This document shows, piece by piece, positions 51,442 to 63,187 of a DNA stretch of 64,000 nt. This stretch comes from Stigmatella ashevillena (GTDB lineage Bacteria; Myxococcota; Myxococcia; Myxococcales; Myxococcaceae): contig NZ_JAQNDM010000002.1 of NCBI RefSeq assembly GCF_028368975.1, positions 3,280,425-3,344,424 on the forward strand, read 5' to 3'. The position numbers and the translations under genes were made by a program. Numbering within the stretch: the first letter of the stretch is position 1; each line of letters starts with the position of its first letter. The notes beneath the pieces were generated by a model. The model was not told the origin of the DNA and did not search any database. It was given only the letters and a program-made list of their open reading frames with translations.

Positions 51442-53466
51442 TCAGTCCGTGGGGACGAGGGTCCAGTTCTGATCAGGCGCGTTGATATCGGCGTAGATGA
51501 TCGTGTCGGTGTTGTTCGCGGTACCCGCCCGGAGCACCGACAGTGCACGGCCGCTGCGCTGGTTGATCAGTTTCTTGAAACCTGGCGAGGCGTCGCTGAG
51601 GGTCCAACTCTGGTCGGTCGCTCCCATGTCATCATAGATGATGGTAGGCGTAGAATCCGCCGTACCTCCCGCTTCCACAGAGAGCGCCTTGCCACTCTTG
51701 CGGTTGATCAATTTGTAGCGTCCACCGCCCGCGTCGAGGACTTGCCAGTACTGGTCGACGGCGGAAACCCAGTCCCAGATGATGGTGTGGGTGCCATTCG
51801 CAGTGCCAGCCGTGTGGACGGACAGAGAGCGGCCACTGTGGTTGTCCACGAGGCGATAGTACTTCGCGGGATCGATGGGCGCGTCGACCGAGACATTGTC
51901 GAAGGCGGCCTGGCCAACAGGCGTTGTCGTCTGTAGCCCGGCATAACTCACCGAGGGGCGCAGGGAGGTATCGGTGACGGAGGCCACCAGGATGTTGTTG
52001 TCGTATAACTCGATGGAAGTGCCCTTGAGCACCAAATTGAGGCGATACGCCGTGTTGGCCTGGATATCCGAAGCCACCCCCACGCCGACGAGCTTGGTGT
52101 TGACGCCGTTCACCAATTTCCCAATCGCGTACTTGTTTCCCCACGACGCGATGCCCGCGTAGTAATAATTGCCACGATTGGTATAGCGTCCCATGAGGAC
52201 GTTGTCGCGGTCGTTGACACTGCTGCTCAGAGGGGTGATCTCGGCGGACACGGCGTAGTCAGCAGAAGGGATGCGCACGTTGCCTTGCAGCGTTTGAGGA
52301 CGTGCGGCCGTCGCGTTGCCGAGAGAGCGTGCCTGGCCATTCACCACCGAGAAGGACGCGCCGTTGGGGATGTCCGCGCCTTGAAGCATCGCCCATTTCG
52401 CGGGATCGATGATCGGCAGGCTGCTGCTCCACGTGGCGAGGTTGACGGTCTCGTTCCATCCAGGACGGTTGTTTTTCGTATTGTAATAGATGTACTCCGT
52501 GCCGCCCACGTCCACGATGAACTGCCGGTAGATCATGCTGTCCTCGGGGCCTTCCACGACGCCGAGATCGAGGGTCATGGCCGAGCGGCTCAACCGCCAG
52601 ACGATTCCGTCCGGTGACGTCAGCCGGCCGCCACGCGACGGATAGTCCGCCTGCCATCCGACGACGGTCATCTGGTAGGAACCGTCAGGCATCTTGCGCA
52701 CGTTCGGGCCACCAATGCCGAGGCTTGCCCAGCCCCCATCGCTCATGGGACCCACCAGCGGGTTGGCGGACGACTTCGTCCAAGGCCCCCGCGGGTTCGT
52801 CGCGGTGGCATAACAGATGAACTCAGGCTCGCCACCTGCGGACGCGATCTTGCCCGCCGTGTACCACACCTTCCACAGGTTGGCCTGAGCGTCGTACATG
52901 AGCGATGAGTTGTAGATGTAATTGTCCTCCCATGCGGCGGTCGGCACCAACACGGCGCCGAACTTCGTCCAGGGGCCCGCGGGGTTCGTGGCCTCGGCGT
53001 AATGCACACGCCCGATCCCGTCGCTGCCCTGGCCGAAGTACGTCATGTGCCAGATGCCGCCCCGATAGACGACGCTCGGTTGGTTCAGGGCCTGCCTTTC
53101 CGTGTCCAGCGTCTGAGAGATCACCGCATTCGGGGTCTTGACCCACGTGCGCCCGTCTTGACTCGTCGCATAACCGATGTTCGTCAACGAGCCGTACCAC
53201 ATCTTGAAAAGAGGACCGCCCCCTTGGTTGTAAACAAGGGTGGGATCCTGCATGAGGCTGCTCTCCCACGGCAGGCTTTGCGCCATCACGACGCCCTGCC
53301 GGTTCCAGCCCGCGACGTTGCCGAAGCTGTCCTTCATGACGTTGACGTCATAGCGAGGCGGCGCGGCATGGGCCGCAGGTGTCGCCCCCCCCGCCCCCCA
53401 GGCGATGACCCACATGGAACTCACTGTGTACGGAGTTCTCAACCATGTTCCCAAGCGTGAACGCAC
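51442..53466 (-). CDS. Secreted beta-propeller (GH43/GH117-like) protein with ricin-type lectin domain
   Basis: 674 residues with a signal peptide near residues 12-34 (ending TPAAHA-AP). Residues about 40-365 carry five repeats ending in motifs such as LFKMWYGSLT-NIGYATSQDG, IWHMTYFG, LWKVWYTAG, SYQMTVVGW and YIYYNTKNN, the pattern of five-bladed GH43/GH117/GH130-type propellers. About 370-535 is a LamG-like sandwich. About 540-674 is a ricin-B-type beta-trefoil: three repeats with (K/R)S-GKALSV, QYW-QV/DQSWTL and NLQ-W-like ends. It probably binds and cleaves extracellular polysaccharide; catalytic residues cannot be assigned with certainty. Divergent from the Cys-rich peptide gene at 53637 with a 170-base gap. 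Confidence 0.8.
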   Translation of the reverse strand: MRSRLGTWLRTPYTVSSMWVIAWGAGGATPAAHAAPPRYDVNVMKDSFGNVAGWNRQGVVMAQSLPWESSLMQDPTLVYNQGGGPLFKMWYGSLTNIGYATSQDGRTWVKTPNAVISQTLDTERQALNQPSVVYRGGIWHMTYFGQGSDGIGRVHYAEATNPAGPWTKFGAVLVPTAAWEDNYIYNSSLMYDAQANLWKVWYTAGKIASAGGEPEFICYATATNPRGPWTKSSANPLVGPMSDGGWASLGIGGPNVRKMPDGSYQMTVVGWQADYPSRGGRLTSPDGIVWRLSRSAMTLDLGVVEGPEDSMIYRQFIVDVGGTEYIYYNTKNNRPGWNETVNLATWSSSLPIIDPAKWAMLQGADIPNGASFSVVNGQARSLGNATAARPQTLQGNVRIPSADYAVSAEITPLSSSVNDRDNVLMGRYTNRGNYYYAGIASWGNKYAIGKLVNGVNTKLVGVGVASDIQANTAYRLNLVLKGTSIELYDNNILVASVTDTSLRPSVSYAGLQTTTPVGQAAFDNVSVDAPIDPAKYYRLVDNHSGRSLSVHTAGTANGTHTIIWDWVSAVDQYWQVLDAGGGRYKLINRKSGKALSVEAGGTADSTPTIIYDDMGATDQSWTLSDASPGFKKLINQRSGRALSVLRAGTANNTDTIIYADINAPDQNWTLVPTD

Positions 53467-53575
53467 GAATCCCTCACAGTCCAGCCTGACTGTTTTTCCC
53501 TTTATTTCTGGACTATGAAATCATGCTTGGTGTGATGTCAATTGACCCTCGAACGACCTGCCGACGCACGATGCG

Positions 53576-53605
53576 TTGACCCAGGGTTCACTCTTGGTTC
53601 ATAAT
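53576..53605 (+). promoter_or_regulatory. Sigma70-like promoter of the second Cys-rich peptide gene
   Basis: TTGACC (53576-53581), an 18-base spacer and CATAAT (53600-53605), ending 31 bases before the ATG. Both boxes match the housekeeping consensus at five of six positions, rare in a genome this GC-rich. Confidence 0.65.
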
Positions 53606-53636
53606 TTATTCACTCCCATTCCCAAGGAGCAGCGCC

Positions 53637-53771
53637 ATGAACACGAAGCCCAAGCTGAAGAAGTTCGCGATCCGCGAAGTTGAGACCGTCAAGACCACGG
53701 CTTCTTTCTACGAGTGCCGTGTTTGCTTGCCCTTGTGTGAACTGTTCCCTGACCTGCCCCAGACGAACTAG
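53637..53771 (+). CDS. Short Cys-containing peptide, RiPP-precursor-like
   Basis: 44-residue ORF from ATG 53637 with a good Shine-Dalgarno (AAGGAG, 53624-53629, 7-base spacer) and a sigma70-like promoter. The N-terminal part is basic then helical (KLKKFAIREVETVKTTAS), a typical leader; the C-terminal part has three cysteines in ECRVCLPLCELF followed by PDLPQTN. It is too short for the usual gene finders. An 11-bp hairpin with a T-run follows at 53789, then a PqqD-like/M50 protease gene. Layout and context support a precursor of a ribosomally synthesised, modified peptide; the modification is not evident because no standard modifying enzyme lies adjacent. Confidence 0.7.
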   Translation: MNTKPKLKKFAIREVETVKTTASFYECRVCLPLCELFPDLPQTN

Positions 53772-53788
53772 TCCCTCTTTTGGCATGT

Positions 53789-53816
53789 AAGGGCTGCAGC
53801 AAGAGCTGCAGCCCTT
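53789..53816 (+). terminator. Rho-independent-like terminator or attenuator after the peptide gene
   Basis: Perfect 11-bp stem AAGGGCTGCAG (53789-53799) with CTGCAGCCCTT (53806-53816) and a 6-base loop; the right arm ends in TT and two more T follow. It lies 17 bases after the peptide stop and 11 bases before the protease ATG, so readthrough would set the ratio of peptide to protease. Confidence 0.75.
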
Positions 53817-53827
53817 TTCATCCCTCC

Positions 53828-55075
53828 ATGAGCTGGCTCGATCACGCCTCGACGGTCGTCATCCATCCCTTCACCCGCCAGACGGGGGGCGACGAGGTGG
53901 TCATCGGCCTCACGGAGACAGGGACGTTTCTGTCGTTGCCACCCGATGCAGTGGAACTGCTGGACGAGTTGGCGCTGGGCAAGACCGTCTCCGAGGTCCG
54001 GACGTGGTACGAGACCCGCTACGGGGAGGAGCCGGACATCGAAGGGCTTCTCGAGCACCTGTCCGCCTACGGCTTCGTGGGCTTGCCTCCCTCGCCCGAG
54101 GGCCAAACCCAGCCGCCCGCCGCGCCCTCCCAGACTCCGAAGAAGCAAACCTATCACCTGACCTTCATCTCCGAGCGCGTGGCCCGCGTCTTCTTCGGCC
54201 GCGGAGCCTTGGCGCTCTACGGGGCCGTCGTCACCGCCGGCATGGCCGCGGTGCTGGCGCGGCCCAGCATCGTCCCTGCCTGGCGCACCCTCTTCGTCCC
54301 CAGCCACATCACGGCAACGTCCCTGCTGGTGACGTTTCTCAGCCTGCTCACCATCGCGCTTCACGAACTGGCGCATTTGACGGCGGCCCGGGCCGCAGGC
54401 GTGTCATGCCGACTGGGGTTCGGCAACCGGCTGTGGACCCTGGTGGCCGAGACGGACATGTCGGGCATGTGGTCCCTGCCCAAGCACCAGCGCTACCTGC
54501 CCATCCTCGCGGGCCCGCTCTTCGATGTGGTCAGCGCATCGGCGGTCCTGCTCGCCCTGTTCGCTGGCAGCGAGGGCTGGCTCGCGCTCACCCCATGGAT
54601 GGTGCGCACGGGCGGCATCCTCCTCTTCATCCACCTGATGCGCCTGCTGTGGCAGTGCTACTTCTATGTCCGGACCGACTTCTACTACGCGCTGACCACC
54701 TTCTGGGACTGCAAGGATCTGCTGCGGGACACGGAGGACTTCCTGCGCAACCGGGTCGCCCGGCTGCGTGGCCGGAGCCCCCCGGTGGATCAGTCTCACA
54801 TTCCCGCGCGCGAGCGGCGTGTCATCGCCGTCTACTCGGTCATCTGGCTTCTGGGCCGGGTCTTGGCCTTTGGAACGCTGTTCTTCGTTCAGCTCCCCCT
54901 TCTCATTCATTACGTTCCCATCATCTTGCGCGCCATCGCCACCGGCCTCCAGGGTGGGTTGTATTCCTTCGTGGACTCCCTGCTCGTCATCACGATCTGG
55001 CTGGTGACGATGACCTTGGGCATCACGTTCTGGATACGGGAGCTGCGCGCGCCTTCCCGCCGCCCGGTGAGGTAA
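53828..55075 (+). CDS. PqqD-like/M50 membrane metalloprotease
   Basis: 415 residues from ATG 53828; an ORF opening at a TTG (53780) would read through the terminator hairpin and is rejected. No clear Shine-Dalgarno precedes the ATG. Residues about 10-85 look like a PqqD-type RiPP recognition element: a three-strand then helical layout with GTFLSLPPDAVELLDELALGKTVSEV and a second helix LEHLSAYGFV. About 105-400 is a membrane domain with HELAH (179-183), the M50 zinc motif, and LAGPLFD (227-233) supplying the third ligand, with about six membrane helices. The RRE-plus-M50 architecture is that of peptide-maturation proteases that clip leader peptides in the membrane. The TPR gene follows after 3 bases. 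Confidence 0.8.
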   Translation: MSWLDHASTVVIHPFTRQTGGDEVVIGLTETGTFLSLPPDAVELLDELALGKTVSEVRTWYETRYGEEPDIEGLLEHLSAYGFVGLPPSPEGQTQPPAAPSQTPKKQTYHLTFISERVARVFFGRGALALYGAVVTAGMAAVLARPSIVPAWRTLFVPSHITATSLLVTFLSLLTIALHELAHLTAARAAGVSCRLGFGNRLWTLVAETDMSGMWSLPKHQRYLPILAGPLFDVVSASAVLLALFAGSEGWLALTPWMVRTGGILLFIHLMRLLWQCYFYVRTDFYYALTTFWDCKDLLRDTEDFLRNRVARLRGRSPPVDQSHIPARERRVIAVYSVIWLLGRVLAFGTLFFVQLPLLIHYVPIILRAIATGLQGGLYSFVDSLLVITIWLVTMTLGITFWIRELRAPSRRPVR

Positions 55076-55078
55076 GCC

Positions 55079-57049
55079 ATGCACGAAGACCCACGGCAGC
55101 CCCTGTCCTATTCTGCCCTTCGCGGCCACACCGTCCTGCTGGAAGCCCCTCCGGGCAACTCCCGGAGCGCCCTGCTCGAGAACTTCGTCGCGCAGGCGGG
55201 CGCCTCCTCCAACGCCCAGGTGTTCTCATCGAACATGGACGAAGCGGGGCCCTGGACGGGCCTCCAGGGGCTGCTGCGCGGCATGCTCCCGCGGCTGCGG
55301 GCCGAGGCCCCTGATCTGGTGGAGCGGCACGCCTACGAGTTGGAGCAGATCCTCCCTGAGCTGCTCGGCCAGCTCTTGCAGAGCCAGGTCAGCCTGACCG
55401 ACTCCGTGCCCCTCACCGAGCGTGTCCGCAGCTACCCCATCGATCGCGCCTACCGCCTGCTGCACGGCTGTGTGGACCTGATGGCCGCGTGGCAGCAGCG
55501 CATCGACCGCGCTCCGTGGGTGCTCGCGTTCGACCACGCGGACCGCGCGGGCGCCTTGGTGGTGCGCTTCTTCGCGGAGCTCACGCGGCGGCATGTCGGC
55601 CGCATGGAAGTGAGCCTGCTCTTGGCGGTGGCCCCTGGCCAGGCTCAGTCCCTGCGAGCACGGCTGGGAGAGAGCATTCCCGTGAAGCACCTGGACGTGG
55701 CGCTGCCGCATGAGGCGCCGCCCGCCCTGGATCCAGATCAGCAAGGGCATGAGGCGCTGGAGCTGGAGAAGCGCATCACGGACCGCAAGGGCGCGGAGAT
55801 CCACATGCCGCGCCTCATCTCTCTCTGGCGCAACAGCAGAACGCCGGAGCGGGCGCTGCGGTGGCATTGCATGGCGCTGTCCCTCTACAACCACCACGGC
55901 TATTACGAGGATGCTCTCACTTACGCGCTGCCGCTCCTCGAAGACCTGGAGCGCGCCATTACCTGCGGGGGTAACTTCAGCCGGTGGGACATCGTCTCGG
56001 GCCTCTTCAACGCCCTGGTCGCCACGGGGCAGCCCGAGCGCGCCCATCAGCTCGTGTTCGACGAGGCCTATTCGAAGATCACCGATCCCAATCAACGGGT
56101 GAGCATCTGCTACTCGCTGTCCATGCTGCATGCGCGCTTCCTCAAGAACCCGGACTTCACGCTGGCGGAGCAGTTCCTGGAGCGTGCCCAGGATGCCGTG
56201 CAGCACAGCACCTTGCCCGACGATGAGAAGCACTTCCTCACCGTGTTCAACTTCAACGGCCTGGCCCTCATCCGCCACCGCCAAGGGCGGGCCGCCGAGG
56301 CGGTCAAACTGTGCCGGGAGGGCTTCGAGCACCTGCAGCGCAACCTGCACCTGGAGCGGCACCGGCTGCACCGCTCGGTGCTGCTCTACAATATCGCGCA
56401 GGTCAACATGTCCACCCGGGCTTACGAGGAAGCCCTGCGCAACTACTCGACCGCCATCGAGATGGATCCCCACTACTCGGAGTATTTCAACGAGCGGGGA
56501 AGCGTCTTCCTGCGCATGGACCGGCTGGAAGAGGCGGTGGCCGACTATCAGCGCGCCATCGCGCTGAGCCCTCCTTACCGGGAGGTGTGGACCAACTTGG
56601 GGCAGGCCTTGCGCCGGATGGGACGGTGGGAAGACGCGATCGCCGCGTACTCCAAGGCCATTGACCTGGACCCGGCCCAGGTGCTCCCCAGGGTGGGGCG
56701 CGCGCAGGCCCACGAAGCGCTCGGCCATGACCGGGAGGCCATCGAGGACTACAGCACCGCGCTGGCGCTGGACAGCCAGCAACCGCTGGTCTGGGCCAAC
56801 CGGGCCGCGCTGCACTACGAGGCGGAGCGCCTGGCCGAGGCGGTGGCTGACTTGAGCAAGGCCATTGCCCTGGCCCCCGGCACCGCCGACCTGTATCAGA
56901 ACCGCGCGTTTGCCTTGGAGGGGCTGGGGAGATTGAAGGAAGCGCGCGAGGACTTGCGCAAGTACCTGGAAGTGGCCCCCGCGGCCGAGGACCGCGGCGG
57001 CGTGGAGTCGCACCTCGTAGCCCTGGAAGAGCAGCTACGGGTGGCGTGA
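55079..57049 (+). CDS. NTPase-like/TPR protein of the peptide operon
   Basis: 656 residues, starting 3 bases after the protease stop with GGTGAGG upstream. Residues about 12-240 resemble an AAA/STAND NTPase: HTVLLEAPPGNSRSALLENF sits where a Walker A would be but has N-S-R-S in place of G-K-S/T, and WVLAFDHADRAG is placed like Walker B (D-D becomes D-H), so ATP hydrolysis is doubtful. A helical middle region (about 240-400) follows, then about six TPR units (about 405-640) with canonical NYSTAIEMDPHYSEYFNERG and VWTNLGQALRRMGRWEDAIAAYSKAIDLDP. Probably a scaffold or regulator in the same pathway as the protease and peptide; convergent with the kinase-AAA gene. Confidence 0.8.
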   Translation: MHEDPRQPLSYSALRGHTVLLEAPPGNSRSALLENFVAQAGASSNAQVFSSNMDEAGPWTGLQGLLRGMLPRLRAEAPDLVERHAYELEQILPELLGQLLQSQVSLTDSVPLTERVRSYPIDRAYRLLHGCVDLMAAWQQRIDRAPWVLAFDHADRAGALVVRFFAELTRRHVGRMEVSLLLAVAPGQAQSLRARLGESIPVKHLDVALPHEAPPALDPDQQGHEALELEKRITDRKGAEIHMPRLISLWRNSRTPERALRWHCMALSLYNHHGYYEDALTYALPLLEDLERAITCGGNFSRWDIVSGLFNALVATGQPERAHQLVFDEAYSKITDPNQRVSICYSLSMLHARFLKNPDFTLAEQFLERAQDAVQHSTLPDDEKHFLTVFNFNGLALIRHRQGRAAEAVKLCREGFEHLQRNLHLERHRLHRSVLLYNIAQVNMSTRAYEEALRNYSTAIEMDPHYSEYFNERGSVFLRMDRLEEAVADYQRAIALSPPYREVWTNLGQALRRMGRWEDAIAAYSKAIDLDPAQVLPRVGRAQAHEALGHDREAIEDYSTALALDSQQPLVWANRAALHYEAERLAEAVADLSKAIALAPGTADLYQNRAFALEGLGRLKEAREDLRKYLEVAPAAEDRGGVESHLVALEEQLRVA

Positions 57050-57105
57050 GCCACTCTCTGCCGTATGAGACAGCCCGGTGGAGGTGACAGGTCGAGCTCA
57101 GAGGC

Positions 57106-60100
57106 TCATGGGTTGCCGACGCGGGCCAGTTCGGCCTCGGCGCGCGCGAGATCGCCGACCGCCTCAAGCCGTTGGAAGAGCTCCCTGGCGCGCAAGAGGT
57201 GGGCCTTGCGCTCTGGGGCTTCTGGGGCCAGGTGCCGCCCCTGCTCGAGCCGGGCCCGGCCTTCCTCATAGGGCATCGCCAACTCCACGGCGCGCTCGGC
57301 GCAGCGCTGCCAGGTACGCCGCGCCACCTCGGTCCGCCCCAAGAGCCAGGCCTCCTGCCCGTCGCAGAGCAGGGAGAACGGCTCTGCGAACGAGAAGGCC
57401 CGGGTGTAGGCCCGCAAGGACTTGCAACCCTCCCTCGCTGCCCGCTCCAACTCCCGTACTCCAGGGGCCCGGCCGCCCGTCACTCGCTCCCACGCCGCGA
57501 GATACACCTCTGTGACCATGCGTAACCCACCGACGATAAGGCAGTTCACCGGCTTTCTGCCCCTCATCAGCGCCAACCCCCTGGCCGCCATCTCGAGCGC
57601 GCGCTCCCGCTGCCCACCCTGCAGCAGGGCCAGGGACAGCGGGCCGTAGAGCAGGGTTGTCTCCGTGGAACTCGCATGGGACTCGCACCAGGGCAGCACC
57701 TGCTCCAGCTCGCGGATGGCCTCCGCGCTACGGCCCAGACGAACGAGGCAGCGCGCCCGCAGCAACGGTCCCCAGTACGAGGGCTGCTCGGCATTGCGCC
57801 TTCGCGCGGAGAGCTCGAGCTCATGCGAGATCTCGACCCCTCGACGGAAACCTCCCTGGTAGTAGAACGCATTCAACAACATGCTGCAGCCCTGCTCGAA
57901 TTGGCGGAAATCCCTGGCGGTGCTGGCAAGCCCCCGGGCCTGTTCCGCCCAGGCCTCCGCCTCCCTCCACCGGGCCTGGCTGATGCCACAGACCACACGG
58001 CGCACCAGCACGTAGATCAAGCTGTCCGTGCTCTCCACTCGCTTGGCCGTGGTCACGGCTCGCTCGCACCAGTCGTTCACCATCGACCGCAGGCCAGGGA
58101 TGGCGTTCAGGATTGTCGCCATGATGATGTAGGCGCGCGCCAGGTCTGGTGAAGGTCCCGCGGGCTCCAGCAGGTTGACCAACCGGAGCGCCGACCAGAT
58201 CACGCGTACGGCATCCTGCTGGAAGACATAAATCTCATTGAGTCTTGTCGTCAGATGCCCGGCCTCGATGCGCAGCTTGCGGCGCTCGGGCGACTGCTCC
58301 TCGAAGGACTCGGGCGTGACCGCCTGCGCGAGCCGCACGAGCAGCTCGCGTGCGAGGCGCAGGCGCCAAGCCTTGGGGCTCTTGGGCAACGGCCAGCCTA
58401 GGTTCTCCAGGTTCTGTCCAACATGCGTGACGCAGGAGGCCATGTCGCCGATGAGGTAGAAGGACTCTGCCAGCCGCCCCTGCAGGTGTCCGATGTGGAT
58501 CGCCTGTGCGGCCTTCGCCTGGGCAATCTCCAGGGCCCGCTGGAAATAGGGGATGGCCGCATGGCAGGCATAGACAGACATGGCCTGCTCCCCTGCCCGC
58601 TCCGCGTAGTGGGCCTCCCGCTCCGTGTTACCTGCCTGGCCCCAGTGGTAGGCGAGCGCCGCCAGCCACTCGGAGGCGTTGGGGTACGCTGCCTCGATGC
58701 AGAGCGCCGCCCGGCGGTGCAGCTCTCGCGCCTTCTCCCCTGACAGGCTGGCCAGTGTGCCCTCTCGCAGCTTGTCGTGGGCGAAACGCCACCGCCCTTC
58801 CGCGAAGTCCAGCACCGCGGCGCCCGCGCAGTCTTCCAGCCACCGATCCAAGTCCTCCTCGGGCGCGCTGGCCCTCAGCACCTGAAGGTCCAGGTGGCGG
58901 CCCACCACCGCCGCCAGCTGTAGCAGTTCGCGCGCCGGAGCCGGCACCCTGTCCAGTCGCCGCTGGATGATCTGCCGCACGCCTCCGGCGAAGACCCGCT
59001 CCGGCAGGGGCGCGGCCCCAATCCTATCCAACTGCCCCGCCTCCTCCGCCAGCGCGCGCACCACCTCTACCAGGAAGAAGGGGTTGCCCTCCGTCTCTCG
59101 CCGGAGCAACTCCAGCACCTGCGGCGCACGGCCGGCCTCGCCGATCATCGACTCGCTCAGGTGCGCCATCTCCTCCGCCCCAAGCCGCGGCACGCCCAGC
59201 ACCCGCATGGCCGGCAGCTCCTGGGAAAGCCCGGGCTGCTCGTCGTCGCGGTACGTGGCGACCACCAGCAGCGGCAGCGTGGCCGCGCACGCCGACAGCC
59301 GCGCCAATAGCCGCTTGGACTCGGCACGCCCCCACTGCAAGTCCTCGAGGATCAACAGGGTCGGCTGGCCGAGTCGCTCGAAGAGTGCCTCCACCACGCC
59401 CATCAGACGCTCCTGGGCAATGTCACCGCCGACCTCCAGCACTTCCGGCACCTGCCTCTGCAGCAGCGCCTCCAGATTCGGCACCAGGGACTTGAGCACG
59501 CTGGCCTCGAAGTCGCTCGGCCCGGACAGCAGCGCCAGCCAGGGCAGCACCGACCGGAAGTCCTCATACGGGCTGCCTCCGCTGCTGACGGCTTGGCCCC
59601 GCAGCACCACAGCCCCCCGCACCATGGCCAGCGTGCGAATCTCTTCCACCAGCCGCGACTTGCCCACCCCGCTCTCTCCGCCCACCAGCCACGCCTCGCC
59701 CTGACCGGCCAACGCCCGCTCCAGCGCCTGCTCCAACAGCTCGCGCTCGCGTTCCCGGCCCACGAAGCGTGCCGACCGCAGGTAGCTCTCGCGCGTGGCC
59801 TGGGTCTCGAACTGGACCTGCTGGCCGACCATCTCCCGCAGGTCCTTCAGCACCTCTTCGGCACGCGTGTAGCGCTCGCGCCGGTCTGCCACCATCAGTC
59901 GTTGGAGGAGCTTCGCCAAGCGTGGCTCTGACTCCTGGGCCCCCGCCCCCATGCGCTGCACCATCACCCCCACACTGTACAGATCCGAAGCCTCCGAGGC
60001 CGACTCTCCCTGGAAGAGCTCGGGTGCGATGTACCCCGGCGTGCCCGCCGTCCCGTGCGGCTCGCCTCGCTCGCGTGCCAGAGCCAGGCCAAAATCCAGC

Positions 60101-60624
60101 ACTTTCACCTGCCCGTCCACCACCAGCACGTTGGCCGGCTTCAGGTCCCGGTGGATGAAGCCCCGGCGATGCATGTACGCGAGCGCTTGCAGCAGCTGCA
60201 CCAGCAGGTCGATCTGCACCCTGGGCGCCTGGCCCCGCCCCGCCTCCAACAGCGTCTTCGCCCCCGCCAGCAGTTCCATGGTGAGGTAGGGCCGCTGCTC
60301 CTCATCGAACCCGTAATCCAGCACGTGGATGACGTGAGGGTGGCGCAGCGAGGTGAGCGCCTTGAACTCGGCGGCCAGGTCCCGCGCCATCTCACGCGAG
60401 GTGGTCACCGTGGTGGCATTCCACGAGGCCTCTTGTGCCAAGCTCCCCAGCGAGCGATGCAACCGTTTGAGTGCAATGGACCCGCCCAGCCGATCCAAGG
60501 CGCGGTACACAGTCCCCATGCCTCCGCGACCGACGACTTCCAGGAGTTGGTAGCGGCGGCCCACCAGTGAGTCCTGCGCGCTGACTCCCGTGACCTCTAC
60601 CTTCTCGGTCCCCAAGTGTTGCAT
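57106..60624 (-). CDS. Ser/Thr kinase-AAA ATPase-helical repeat fusion (PknK/MalT-like)
   Basis: 1172 residues. Kinase domain about 25-270: glycine loop VGRGGMGTVYRA, Lys 53 in IALKRL, HRDLKPANV (158-166), DFG (177-179), APE (200-202). An AAA_16-type ATPase follows (about 285-640): FVGRERERELLEQAL, Walker A GGESGVGKSRL (315-325), Walker B LLILEDLQW, and the arginine-containing TYRDDEQPG segment. The remaining 520 residues are TPR-like helical repeats. This architecture occurs in PknK-type kinases and is common in myxobacteria as a signal transducer. No DNA-binding domain is fused. Convergent with the TPR gene (56 bases); 5' side faces gene remnants. Confidence 0.94.
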   Translation of the reverse strand: MQHLGTEKVEVTGVSAQDSLVGRRYQLLEVVGRGGMGTVYRALDRLGGSIALKRLHRSLGSLAQEASWNATTVTTSREMARDLAAEFKALTSLRHPHVIHVLDYGFDEEQRPYLTMELLAGAKTLLEAGRGQAPRVQIDLLVQLLQALAYMHRRGFIHRDLKPANVLVVDGQVKVLDFGLALARERGEPHGTAGTPGYIAPELFQGESASEASDLYSVGVMVQRMGAGAQESEPRLAKLLQRLMVADRRERYTRAEEVLKDLREMVGQQVQFETQATRESYLRSARFVGRERERELLEQALERALAGQGEAWLVGGESGVGKSRLVEEIRTLAMVRGAVVLRGQAVSSGGSPYEDFRSVLPWLALLSGPSDFEASVLKSLVPNLEALLQRQVPEVLEVGGDIAQERLMGVVEALFERLGQPTLLILEDLQWGRAESKRLLARLSACAATLPLLVVATYRDDEQPGLSQELPAMRVLGVPRLGAEEMAHLSESMIGEAGRAPQVLELLRRETEGNPFFLVEVVRALAEEAGQLDRIGAAPLPERVFAGGVRQIIQRRLDRVPAPARELLQLAAVVGRHLDLQVLRASAPEEDLDRWLEDCAGAAVLDFAEGRWRFAHDKLREGTLASLSGEKARELHRRAALCIEAAYPNASEWLAALAYHWGQAGNTEREAHYAERAGEQAMSVYACHAAIPYFQRALEIAQAKAAQAIHIGHLQGRLAESFYLIGDMASCVTHVGQNLENLGWPLPKSPKAWRLRLARELLVRLAQAVTPESFEEQSPERRKLRIEAGHLTTRLNEIYVFQQDAVRVIWSALRLVNLLEPAGPSPDLARAYIIMATILNAIPGLRSMVNDWCERAVTTAKRVESTDSLIYVLVRRVVCGISQARWREAEAWAEQARGLASTARDFRQFEQGCSMLLNAFYYQGGFRRGVEISHELELSARRRNAEQPSYWGPLLRARCLVRLGRSAEAIRELEQVLPWCESHASSTETTLLYGPLSLALLQGGQRERALEMAARGLALMRGRKPVNCLIVGGLRMVTEVYLAAWERVTGGRAPGVRELERAAREGCKSLRAYTRAFSFAEPFSLLCDGQEAWLLGRTEVARRTWQRCAERAVELAMPYEEGRARLEQGRHLAPEAPERKAHLLRARELFQRLEAVGDLARAEAELARVGNP

Positions 60625-62010: not shown

Positions 62011-62146
62011 GGGGTCATCGAGTGTGTACTCAAATACGCTACAGTCGAAGGTCCCCTGGGAGTCAATCGGCGACGGAGGAACAGCAGGACGTGGTTCTTG
62101 ACGGCCGCCAGGGTCCTCTTCTTGGATGCAGTGTGGAGAACGGCCC

Positions 62147-63187
62147 ATGCAGGTTGAGACCATCGTCTGGGACATGACTTATGCGTGTTCCCTGCGCTGC
62201 ATCCATTGCTACTCAGAATCTGGGAGGCGGCCAGCAGGAGCGCGGCGGGAGGAGGTGCTGCGGATCGCCGAGGAGATTGCCCGGGTGAAGCCGCGGGACG
62301 TGGCGCTCAGTGGGGGAGAGCCCTTCCTGGCCCCGGGATGGGAGGAGGCGGTTCAGTGTCTCCATAGCGCGGGCATCGCGGTGAGCGTGTATGTCAGCGG
62401 TTGGCTCATGGACGAGGCCCTCGCGGAAAGGCTTGCGGGCACCATGACCCGGGTGTGCGTGAGTGTGGACGGCGCCCGGGCGAGCACCCACGACGCGATC
62501 CGGGGCCGTGAGGGTTCCTTCGAGCGGGCCATGGTGGCGCTGGAGCTGCTCGCGCATCAGAAACGGGAACGCTTGGCCCGTGGGGAGCCCTGTTACTCGC
62601 TGGAGGTCGAGATGACCGTCATGCGAAGCAACCTCGCGGAGACGGAGCTCCTGGTCCAGGAGCTGTCCAGACGTTTTCCCGGCCTGGATGGCCTTCGGCT
62701 GGGCATGGCGATTCCGGGCGGGTTGGCGGCCGATGAAGACTTCGAGGAGCGCGAGCTGCTCACCGACGCGGAGAGCCTGGCACTCCTGGCCAGCAAGCCC
62801 CGGCTGGCCGCATTGGCCTCCTCCGGCGTGCGGGTGGCGGTGACCGACGTGCGGCCACTCTTCGCGCAGCGTGAGCCCGGCGCGCCCCGGCTGCCCATGG
62901 CGCACCTGGAGCCAGACGGACAGCTGCGCGCCTTCGAAACGTGCGAGGCCAAAGTGGGCAACGTTCTGGAGGAGCCGTTCGAGGTGCTGTGGGAGCGGGC
63001 GCTCGCGTGGCGGGGCGAGGCCTTCGTGGTGGAGCAGTTCGGCGCCATCCGCTCCCTCCGGGACTGGGCCCGGGCGTCGCGCGCCCTGGATCAGCGCTTT
63101 GGTTCCGCGGAAGACCTGGCCCGCATCGCCCGGCGTCCCCGGCGGACCCTGTCTTCAGGGCCGCCAGGGTCCGGTTACAGCCGGTAA
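62147..63187 (+). CDS. Radical SAM protein with reduced SPASM region
   Basis: 346 residues from ATG 62147, chosen because GGAGAA lies 7 bases upstream; a longer frame starts at 62126. VWDMTYACSLRCIHCYSESG gives the CxxxCxxC cluster motif (Cys 14, 18, 21), and ALSGGEPFL the SAM motif. The C-terminal part has the SPASM-type layout (HLEPDGQLRAFETCEAKVGNVLEEPFEVLW) but only one cysteine where three or more are expected, so an auxiliary cluster is unlikely. Similar proteins act on peptides (PqqE/MftC-like) or in heme d1 synthesis. No peptide precursor gene sits next to it; it overlaps the convergent porin gene by 13 bases. Confidence 0.85.
   Translation: MQVETIVWDMTYACSLRCIHCYSESGRRPAGARREEVLRIAEEIARVKPRDVALSGGEPFLAPGWEEAVQCLHSAGIAVSVYVSGWLMDEALAERLAGTMTRVCVSVDGARASTHDAIRGREGSFERAMVALELLAHQKRERLARGEPCYSLEVEMTVMRSNLAETELLVQELSRRFPGLDGLRLGMAIPGGLAADEDFEERELLTDAESLALLASKPRLAALASSGVRVAVTDVRPLFAQREPGAPRLPMAHLEPDGQLRAFETCEAKVGNVLEEPFEVLWERALAWRGEAFVVEQFGAIRSLRDWARASRALDQRFGSAEDLARIARRPRRTLSSGPPGSGYSR

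Follow-up and report, generated by a model that had tools for sequence, protein, structure and literature searches.

We have analysed a 64,000-nucleotide stretch of the Stigmatella ashevillena genome (contig NZ_JAQNDM010000002.1, positions 3,280,425 to 3,344,424; hereafter the window) and describe in it a compact operon whose elements all lie on one strand, the plus strand, between window positions 53576 and 57049. The operon encodes a 44-residue peptide, a site-2 protease with an additional front domain, and a tetratricopeptide repeat (TPR) protein. It probably serves, as a minimal cassette, to mature a peptide made on the ribosome; in this cassette the protease would be guided by a recognition element for ribosomally synthesized and post-translationally modified peptides (RiPPs), known as an RRE, and would have the TPR protein as its partner. 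The genome encodes the gliding-motility family GltE (759.6 bits, cut-off 225), which exceeded its cut-off in 0/14 control genomes and points to a myxobacterium.

Anatomy of the operon and its short gene

The gene of the precursor peptide occupies positions 53637 to 53771, including the stop codon, and a ribosome-binding site (AAGGAG, 53624 to 53629) stands seven bases ahead of its ATG at 53637. Residues 1 to 22 (53637 to 53702) form a conserved leader with the motif KKFAIREVETVKTTA, and residues 23 to 44 (53703 to 53768) form a core that is variable in alignment and carries a Tyr+Cys signature, namely Tyr25 with Cys27, Cys30 and Cys34; the boundary between leader and core is putative. Farther upstream, a sigma-70-type promoter-like site (TTGACC-18-CATAAT, 53576 to 53605) matches the consensus at 10 of 12 positions, which by itself is no proof of function; two sites of that grade, one on each strand, occur in the 4-kb stretch versus 0.2 expected. 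A reading of this DNA made from sequence alone, hereafter the sequence-only reading, had proposed a near-consensus promoter, a strong ribosome site and a short peptide with three cysteines near its C-terminus, and all of these are confirmed. The protease gene (53828 to 55075, 415 residues; Peptidase_M50 30.5 bits, cut-off 27.2) contains a predicted RRE (PqqD-like) domain at about residues 8 to 89 (53849 to 54094), assigned by fold, and the zinc-protease motif HELAH, evident in the sequence, at 54362 to 54376. The gene of the TPR protein (55079 to 57049, 656 residues; TPR_1 131.6 bits) begins three bases past it, and the coordinates and families thus bear out the earlier assignment of a TPR gene directly behind an M50 protease.

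Several results bear on whether the short open reading frame is a real gene. A search for the protease in 96 genomes of the window's family gave five strong matches (E ≤ 4.5e-104); a sixth was weak (E 4.7e-6) and was left out of the counts. When the same genomes were searched with the peptide only, the five best matches (E ≤ 5.8e-4) fell in exactly the five protease genomes, with the next match at 0.034. Each of these five loci has the same arrangement: 57-168 bases separate the peptide from the protease match downstream of it, and the TPR gene follows the protease directly. The proportions of nonsynonymous (pN) and synonymous (pS) differences in the leader codons of the five myxobacterial peptides (10 pairs) are 0.11 and 0.36, a pN/pS of 0.32 (a second value was 0.43), and by this measure the leader is under purifying selection. 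Chance frames of this length do occur, and the genome of the window itself (10.95 Mb) holds only one peptide match at E ≤ 1, with no second copy. The explanation that the frame is not a gene and that the likeness arose by chance is, however, scarcely credible: the independent peptide and protease searches converge on the same genomes, the leader shows the substitution pattern just given, and the same leader stands upstream of 45/45 loci examined that have this protease and TPR gene (the leader pattern was a search criterion there, its position was not). We therefore ruled out a chance frame on the matching genome sets and the leader pN/pS. The check proposed by the sequence-only reading, that the three genes should recur together in related genomes with a conserved leader and a variable core in the aligned peptides, was run and passed, and neither an absence of co-occurrence nor the substitution pattern of an untranslated frame was seen when looked for.

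In an all-against-all comparison of four 20-kb myxobacterial neighbourhoods, the TPR gene was common to all four and the protease to three, the fourth also having the protease at its locus. Beyond these there were just two weak matches, each common to two loci; the fifth myxobacterial locus, on a 7.5-kb contig, was outside this comparison. Since the operon alone is common to the compared neighbourhoods, the operon itself is the travelling unit. Its spread is patchy (5/96 family genomes; protease in 5/195 genomes of the phylum sample), as would suit an antimicrobial or toxin peptide that undergoes no enzymatic modification and has the TPR protein as its immunity or transport partner, and the several variable cores per locus described below would suit it too. 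Such a role is nevertheless quite improbable in our judgement, because no transporter or immunity gene is common to the compared myxobacterial loci and PADLOC returned only weak, generic TPR matches. A defence system was rejected as well, PADLOC being silent on the peptide and the protease.

Between the precursor and protease genes lies a hairpin of 12 pairs with a 4-base loop, followed by four T (53789 to 53816). The 56-base intergenic sequence has a fold energy of -28.4 kcal/mol (z -5.1), and hairpins are predicted in all five other intergenic sequences examined, although their z scores (-0.6 to -3.8) are not all significant. The sequence-only reading had taken this element for a terminator with a T-run; the strong hairpin stands, but the run is of four T only and the terminator scan did not list the site. 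It probably limits read-through, which would leave the precursor in excess of the enzymes. Nothing in Rfam matched within 53400-57200.

Predicted structures of the protease and the TPR protein

The protease model (predicted local distance difference test score, pLDDT, 87.3) has a front domain with the order strand-strand-strand-helix-helix-helix. Foldseek returned nothing for this model at E ≤ 0.001, and the fold claim therefore rests on a second look with VIA-align, in which the front domain matched the leader-bound lasso peptide B1 proteins 6jx3 (Z 11.1, root-mean-square deviation 2.2, 79 residues) and TbiB1 (5v1v, Z 10.7). The remainder resembles site-2 proteases: model residues 158-296 match RseP (7w6y, Z 9.9) and residues 109-298 match SpoIVFB (8vjl, Z 9.7). 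In 23 aligned rows H179, E180 and H183 are invariant and D233 is present in at least 90%, so that the HExxH motif and the later Asp ligand of site-2 proteases are found together with their fold. At the level of sequence the front domain is faint. Pfam PqqD was not found in the window protease and was weak in 5/22 relatives (best E 0.015), and a profile search of the domain reached lasso B1 proteins at E 0.19 and 0.89 only. A phmmer search against the PDB gave designed trefoils, apparently low-complexity matches, which were ignored. Of the PqqD-like front end proposed earlier, the predicted structure is thus RRE-like but the Pfam family is silent on the window protein. The model supports a front domain of the RRE-like, leader-binding kind, and the 6jx3 match (Z 11.1) places a predicted RRE in a maturation protein, a general feature of RiPP systems.

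The TPR protein was modelled with a pLDDT of 92.1 and forms a regular TPR superhelix at about residues 226-655. Its best fold match is a consensus TPR protein (Z 22.5), in a search that barely covered the front 220 residues. The sequence-only reading had labelled the protein an NTPase, a label that we doubt: the AAA_16 score of 18.6 bits falls short of the cut-off, 32.6, and the lysine of the Walker A motif (GxxxxGK[ST]) that marks P-loop NTPases is read in the alignment as Arg in 5/5 myxobacterial TPR proteins. The NTPase-like front part looks inactive by sequence. Because this part lacks the Walker-A lysine and is shorter in the actinobacterial TPR proteins, we read the TPR protein as a scaffold rather than a motor.

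This fold bears on the main rival of a maturation cassette, an unmodified secreted signal or pheromone that would be released by the protease and perceived by the TPR protein as an intracellular receptor (RRNPP-like) or sensor. In RRNPP quorum sensing, TPR proteins are intracellular peptide receptors, and M50 proteases are known to process pheromone-like peptides. A phage Rap receptor with bound peptide (8rte) is among the TPR fold matches (Z 17.3, rank 26), with generic TPR proteins scoring higher. On the other side, a Pfam scan found no DNA-binding or helix-turn-helix (HTH) domain in the TPR protein, and the RRE on the protease, together with the fixed Tyr+Cys pair described below, favours a chemical product. 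We consider the pheromone unlikely, but the most serious of the competing explanations.

Related loci in actinobacteria and the Tyr+Cys signature

The family extends beyond the myxobacteria. In a Micromonospora locus, MKKLVVRKLETVKTSAAAACASVN stands ahead of a protease 37% identical to that of the window; a pattern scan of genome contigs gave this one locus only, because the patterns reach close relatives only. Protease relatives occur in 83/300 genomes of Micromonospora's family and in 17/394 genomes of its class, and the peptide-protease loci fall into four classes (TPR, VKTS, ThiF and IETT). The TPR class has the order of the window, with a peptide of the pattern KK[I/F]..R....V[KR][TL]T... 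followed by the protease and then the TPR gene. Among the 300 genomes, 33 of the 35 full-length TPR matches (at least 600 bits) lie directly behind a protease match, at a gap of 4-216 bases, compared with 0/21 weaker TPR matches, and among the 394 genomes a TPR gene stands beside 7/7 TPR-class proteases.

Leaders are shared across this class and cores differ. Eight leader columns (K8, K9, R13, E16, T17, K19, T20 and A22) are invariant in six peptides, one of them from Micromonospora, and the common pattern is KK..R....VKTT or VRLT. Tandem precursor arrays of 6, 6, 6, 7 and 10 copies were found at five loci, with near-identical leaders and example cores such as QPLYAGGCGSVPLK. In the four arrays measured, mean leader identity is 0.81-0.93 versus 0.48-0.72 for the core, and core length within arrays differs up to two-fold. 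Such a pattern is what a leader-dependent peptide family should show, as judged from these sequences, and precursors of this build, ribosomal and encoded beside a maturation gene, conform to RiPPs in general. The arrays also speak against a pheromone, since one TPR gene can have as many as ten different cores at its side, unlike a system of one receptor and one signal.

The cores of the TPR class hold both Tyr and Cys with few exceptions. In the first set of loci the pair was present at 30/31 loci and in 50/51 distinct cores, and in 14 loci fetched afterwards as a test it was present at 14/14 (13/13 distinct cores); combined, this amounts to 44/45 loci and 63/64 distinct cores. The spacing is mostly 4 or 5 where Tyr comes first and 3 where Cys comes first. 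Before these counts nine re-fetches of already counted places were dropped, as were six loci, none with a TPR gene, at which the pattern had no peptide match (one of these places shows a likely peptide), and two far-upstream pattern matches taken as chance. Of the other classes, the VKTS class, which has no TPR gene, has Cys in 15/15 distinct cores and Tyr in 0/15, the ThiF class Cys in 2/5 and Tyr in none, and the IETT class Cys in 0/4 and Tyr in 1/4. A tree of the proteases places the five myxobacterial ones with the VKTS class (support 99/98), far from the actinobacterial TPR-class proteases (100/98). The myxobacterial cores hold Tyr despite these VKTS-side proteases, which indicates that Tyr goes with the TPR gene and not with the protease branch.

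The VKTS class (18 loci) contains the nearest relatives of the window's protease and encodes a 22-32-residue peptide with one Cys and no Tyr; a TPR gene was not found within 17 fetched loci. These loci are often near AMP-binding, LnmK-like, HMG-CoA-synthase-like, P450 or CRP-like genes (families tested on single representatives). The peptide-protease pair is often inside clusters resembling those for polyketide synthases and nonribosomal peptide synthetases, with regulators, and a ribosomal peptide there is perhaps a signal or carrier; a signal would fit such surroundings, and to that extent this TPR-less class favours the pheromone. In the ThiF class (five loci, three of them from Nonomuraea, Nocardia and Actinacidiphila) a peptide R.L...ETT comes first, a ThiF-like adenylyltransferase second and the protease third; this may be a pathway that activates the peptide C-terminus. 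On a Priestia koreensis plasmid (Bacillota), a ThiF-like gene, an annotated substrate-binding protein, an M50 relative (26%) and a major facilitator superfamily transporter stand in a row. The IETT class (eight loci) has a peptide IRLLDKIETT... or IRRLDKIETT... separated from the protease by about 370-880 bases (about 680-880 in 6/8 loci).

Behind the TPR gene, a flavin-reductase-like gene (PF01613) was found at 13/23 actinobacterial loci with enough flank, the family being confirmed for four of these, and at 11/14 test loci, together 24/37; an oxidoreductase of the flavin mononucleotide type (PF00724) takes that place at two more loci. The sequence-only reading, that the operon is compact and lacks the standard RiPP enzymes, holds for the myxobacteria, but since this gene is so often next in actinobacteria, the pathway is perhaps not always so bare.

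Other genes flank the operon in the window. A glycosidase gene (GH43-like, below cut-off) with ricin-type lectin repeats (51442-53466, minus strand) is divergent from the operon, and the second promoter-like site (53541-53512) points toward it. Convergent with the TPR gene lies a Ser/Thr kinase-AAA_16-TPR protein of 1172 residues (57106-60624, minus strand); among NCBIfam families it comes closest to the TOMM kinase/cyclase fusion family, at 203 bits where the cut-off is 706. Both were rejected as partners, with no tblastn match at 1e-20 in 28 related loci. Also on the operon's strand, 5 kb past the TPR gene, a radical SAM protein of 353 residues is encoded (62126-63187; PF04055, 67 bits); it has no homologue in the same 28 loci (tblastn 1e-5) and is thus apparently unconnected.

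Proposed pathway and known systems

We propose that the 44-residue precursor would be made in excess of the enzymes through the hairpin behind its gene, and that the RRE-like domain at the front of the membrane protease would bind the precursor's conserved leader. The site-2 protease part may then cleave away the leader, either inside or at the membrane, and help to release the core of about 20 residues outside; leader-guided cleavage is well supported by the anatomy of the locus, as a prediction from the model. The TPR protein, presumably soluble, would serve as a partner, probably not as an ATPase but as a scaffold or chaperone, and would either handle the core or connect it with a modifying step. 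Because it goes with cores that hold Tyr and Cys a few residues apart, this pair is the likeliest site of a predicted modification, for example a Tyr-Cys link. In many actinobacterial relatives the flavin-reductase-like protein encoded next would supply a redox step; the myxobacteria would have to draw on such a protein from elsewhere, unless their core is released unmodified.

Several points weigh against this proposal. In the window, no modifying enzyme of a known kind is adjacent to the cassette, and the flavin-reductase gene is missing from 5/5 myxobacterial loci and from 13/37 actinobacterial ones. One TPR locus, on a Streptomyces plasmid amid transposases, has a core with neither Tyr nor Cys. 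The protease tree needs few changes, so that the link between Tyr and the TPR gene rests on one or two events, and many loci are near-copies, with one same peptide at 7/14 test loci. Full-length TPR homologues also occur without this protease (10/17 in the 394 genomes), and an examination of 15 such loci turned up no protease relative nearby; the TPR protein is thus not exclusive to the cassette and has other uses. These protease-less homologues sit in recurring neighbourhoods. Finally, core modification, leader cleavage and leader binding are things that we infer only.

With these points considered, the best reading is a RiPP-like class that is undescribed as far as searched, with a protease of a known kind and an unusual partner. 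A bolder version, improbable at present, holds that this is a new RiPP class across Myxococcota and Actinomycetota. The TPR protein with its dead NTPase front would present the core to a flavin-dependent Tyr-Cys joining reaction, after which the RRE-guided site-2 protease would release the ring-bearing core through the membrane; in the flavin-less myxobacteria, the joining would fall to the TPR protein itself or to a trans-acting enzyme. If the maturation cassette is real, a widespread class of tiny peptides, with precursors down to 24-26 residues, would have been overlooked by standard genome mining, which has no radical SAM, YcaO, lanthionine or ligase gene here as a marker. The fixed Tyr-Cys pair in hypervariable surroundings, with arrays of up to ten, would point to a tolerant new chemistry. 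The system would also offer a testable case of a leader-binding domain carried by the protease itself, and of RiPP pathways in which TPR proteins are partners; in the parts consulted of a report on the ammosamide cluster, the role of a TPR protein, AmmC2, is likewise left open (PMC12424672).

The triad was not found described in the titles and abstracts of the open-access literature searched, a scope that leaves subscription journals mostly outside and is no proof of its being unpublished. The passages on proteases and RREs in two further articles (PMC12710340, PMC7470986) do not mention an M50-TPR pair. Daptides, with the protease MpaP, were found through an RRE-site-2 protease fusion; their clusters each encode several short precursors that have a conserved leader motif in common, and they occur mostly in Actinomycetota, according to the sections consulted (PMC10036551). 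The same sections give as their hallmarks the leader motif ELExMEAP, an invariant C-terminal Thr, and genes for an alcohol dehydrogenase, an aminotransferase, a methyltransferase and an RRE-DUF protein (PMC10036551). Our loci share with daptides the fused protease and the several short precursors with a conserved leader, but differ in leader, core and partners, having the TPR gene and the Tyr+Cys core. Membership was rejected: C-terminal Thr occurs in 0/64 distinct TPR-class cores and ELExME in 0/75 precursors, and the window core ends in QTN. The daptide enzyme set was not found in a Pfam scan limited to four flanking or member proteins and the radical SAM gene.

M50 membrane proteases also act on short ribosomal precursors in the epipeptides (EpeP) and pearlins (TglG, TmoG), as stated in the part of the source consulted (PMC10885120). 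The combination of such a protease with a short ribosomal precursor is common to those systems and ours. Epipeptide pathways depend on a radical SAM epimerase, pearlin pathways on a peptide aminoacyl-tRNA ligase. Unlike in epipeptides, no radical SAM gene adjoins the cassette, the one 5 kb off lacking homologues at related loci, and a pearlin-type ligase (LanB-like) is not among the proteins scanned, which were only some of the nearby reading frames. With RRNPP receptors and STAND-LuxR-type AAA_16-TPR proteins our system shares the TPR superhelix, a short peptide gene nearby and the AAA_16-like front, but no HTH was found and the Walker-A Lys is replaced by Arg. RRNPP receptors combine a TPR domain that binds a cognate peptide with an HTH or a Rap-type partner domain, and Rap-type receptors have no HTH. 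The fold of the protease front domain is that of the lasso B1 proteins 6jx3 and 5v1v. Lasso B1 stands alone as a protein, accompanied by a transglutaminase-like protease and a cyclase; here, unlike there, the domain is fused to a site-2 protease. The ThiF-M50 clusters have the same protease family and a related leader (R.L...ETT), with a ThiF-like adenylyltransferase in place of the TPR gene.

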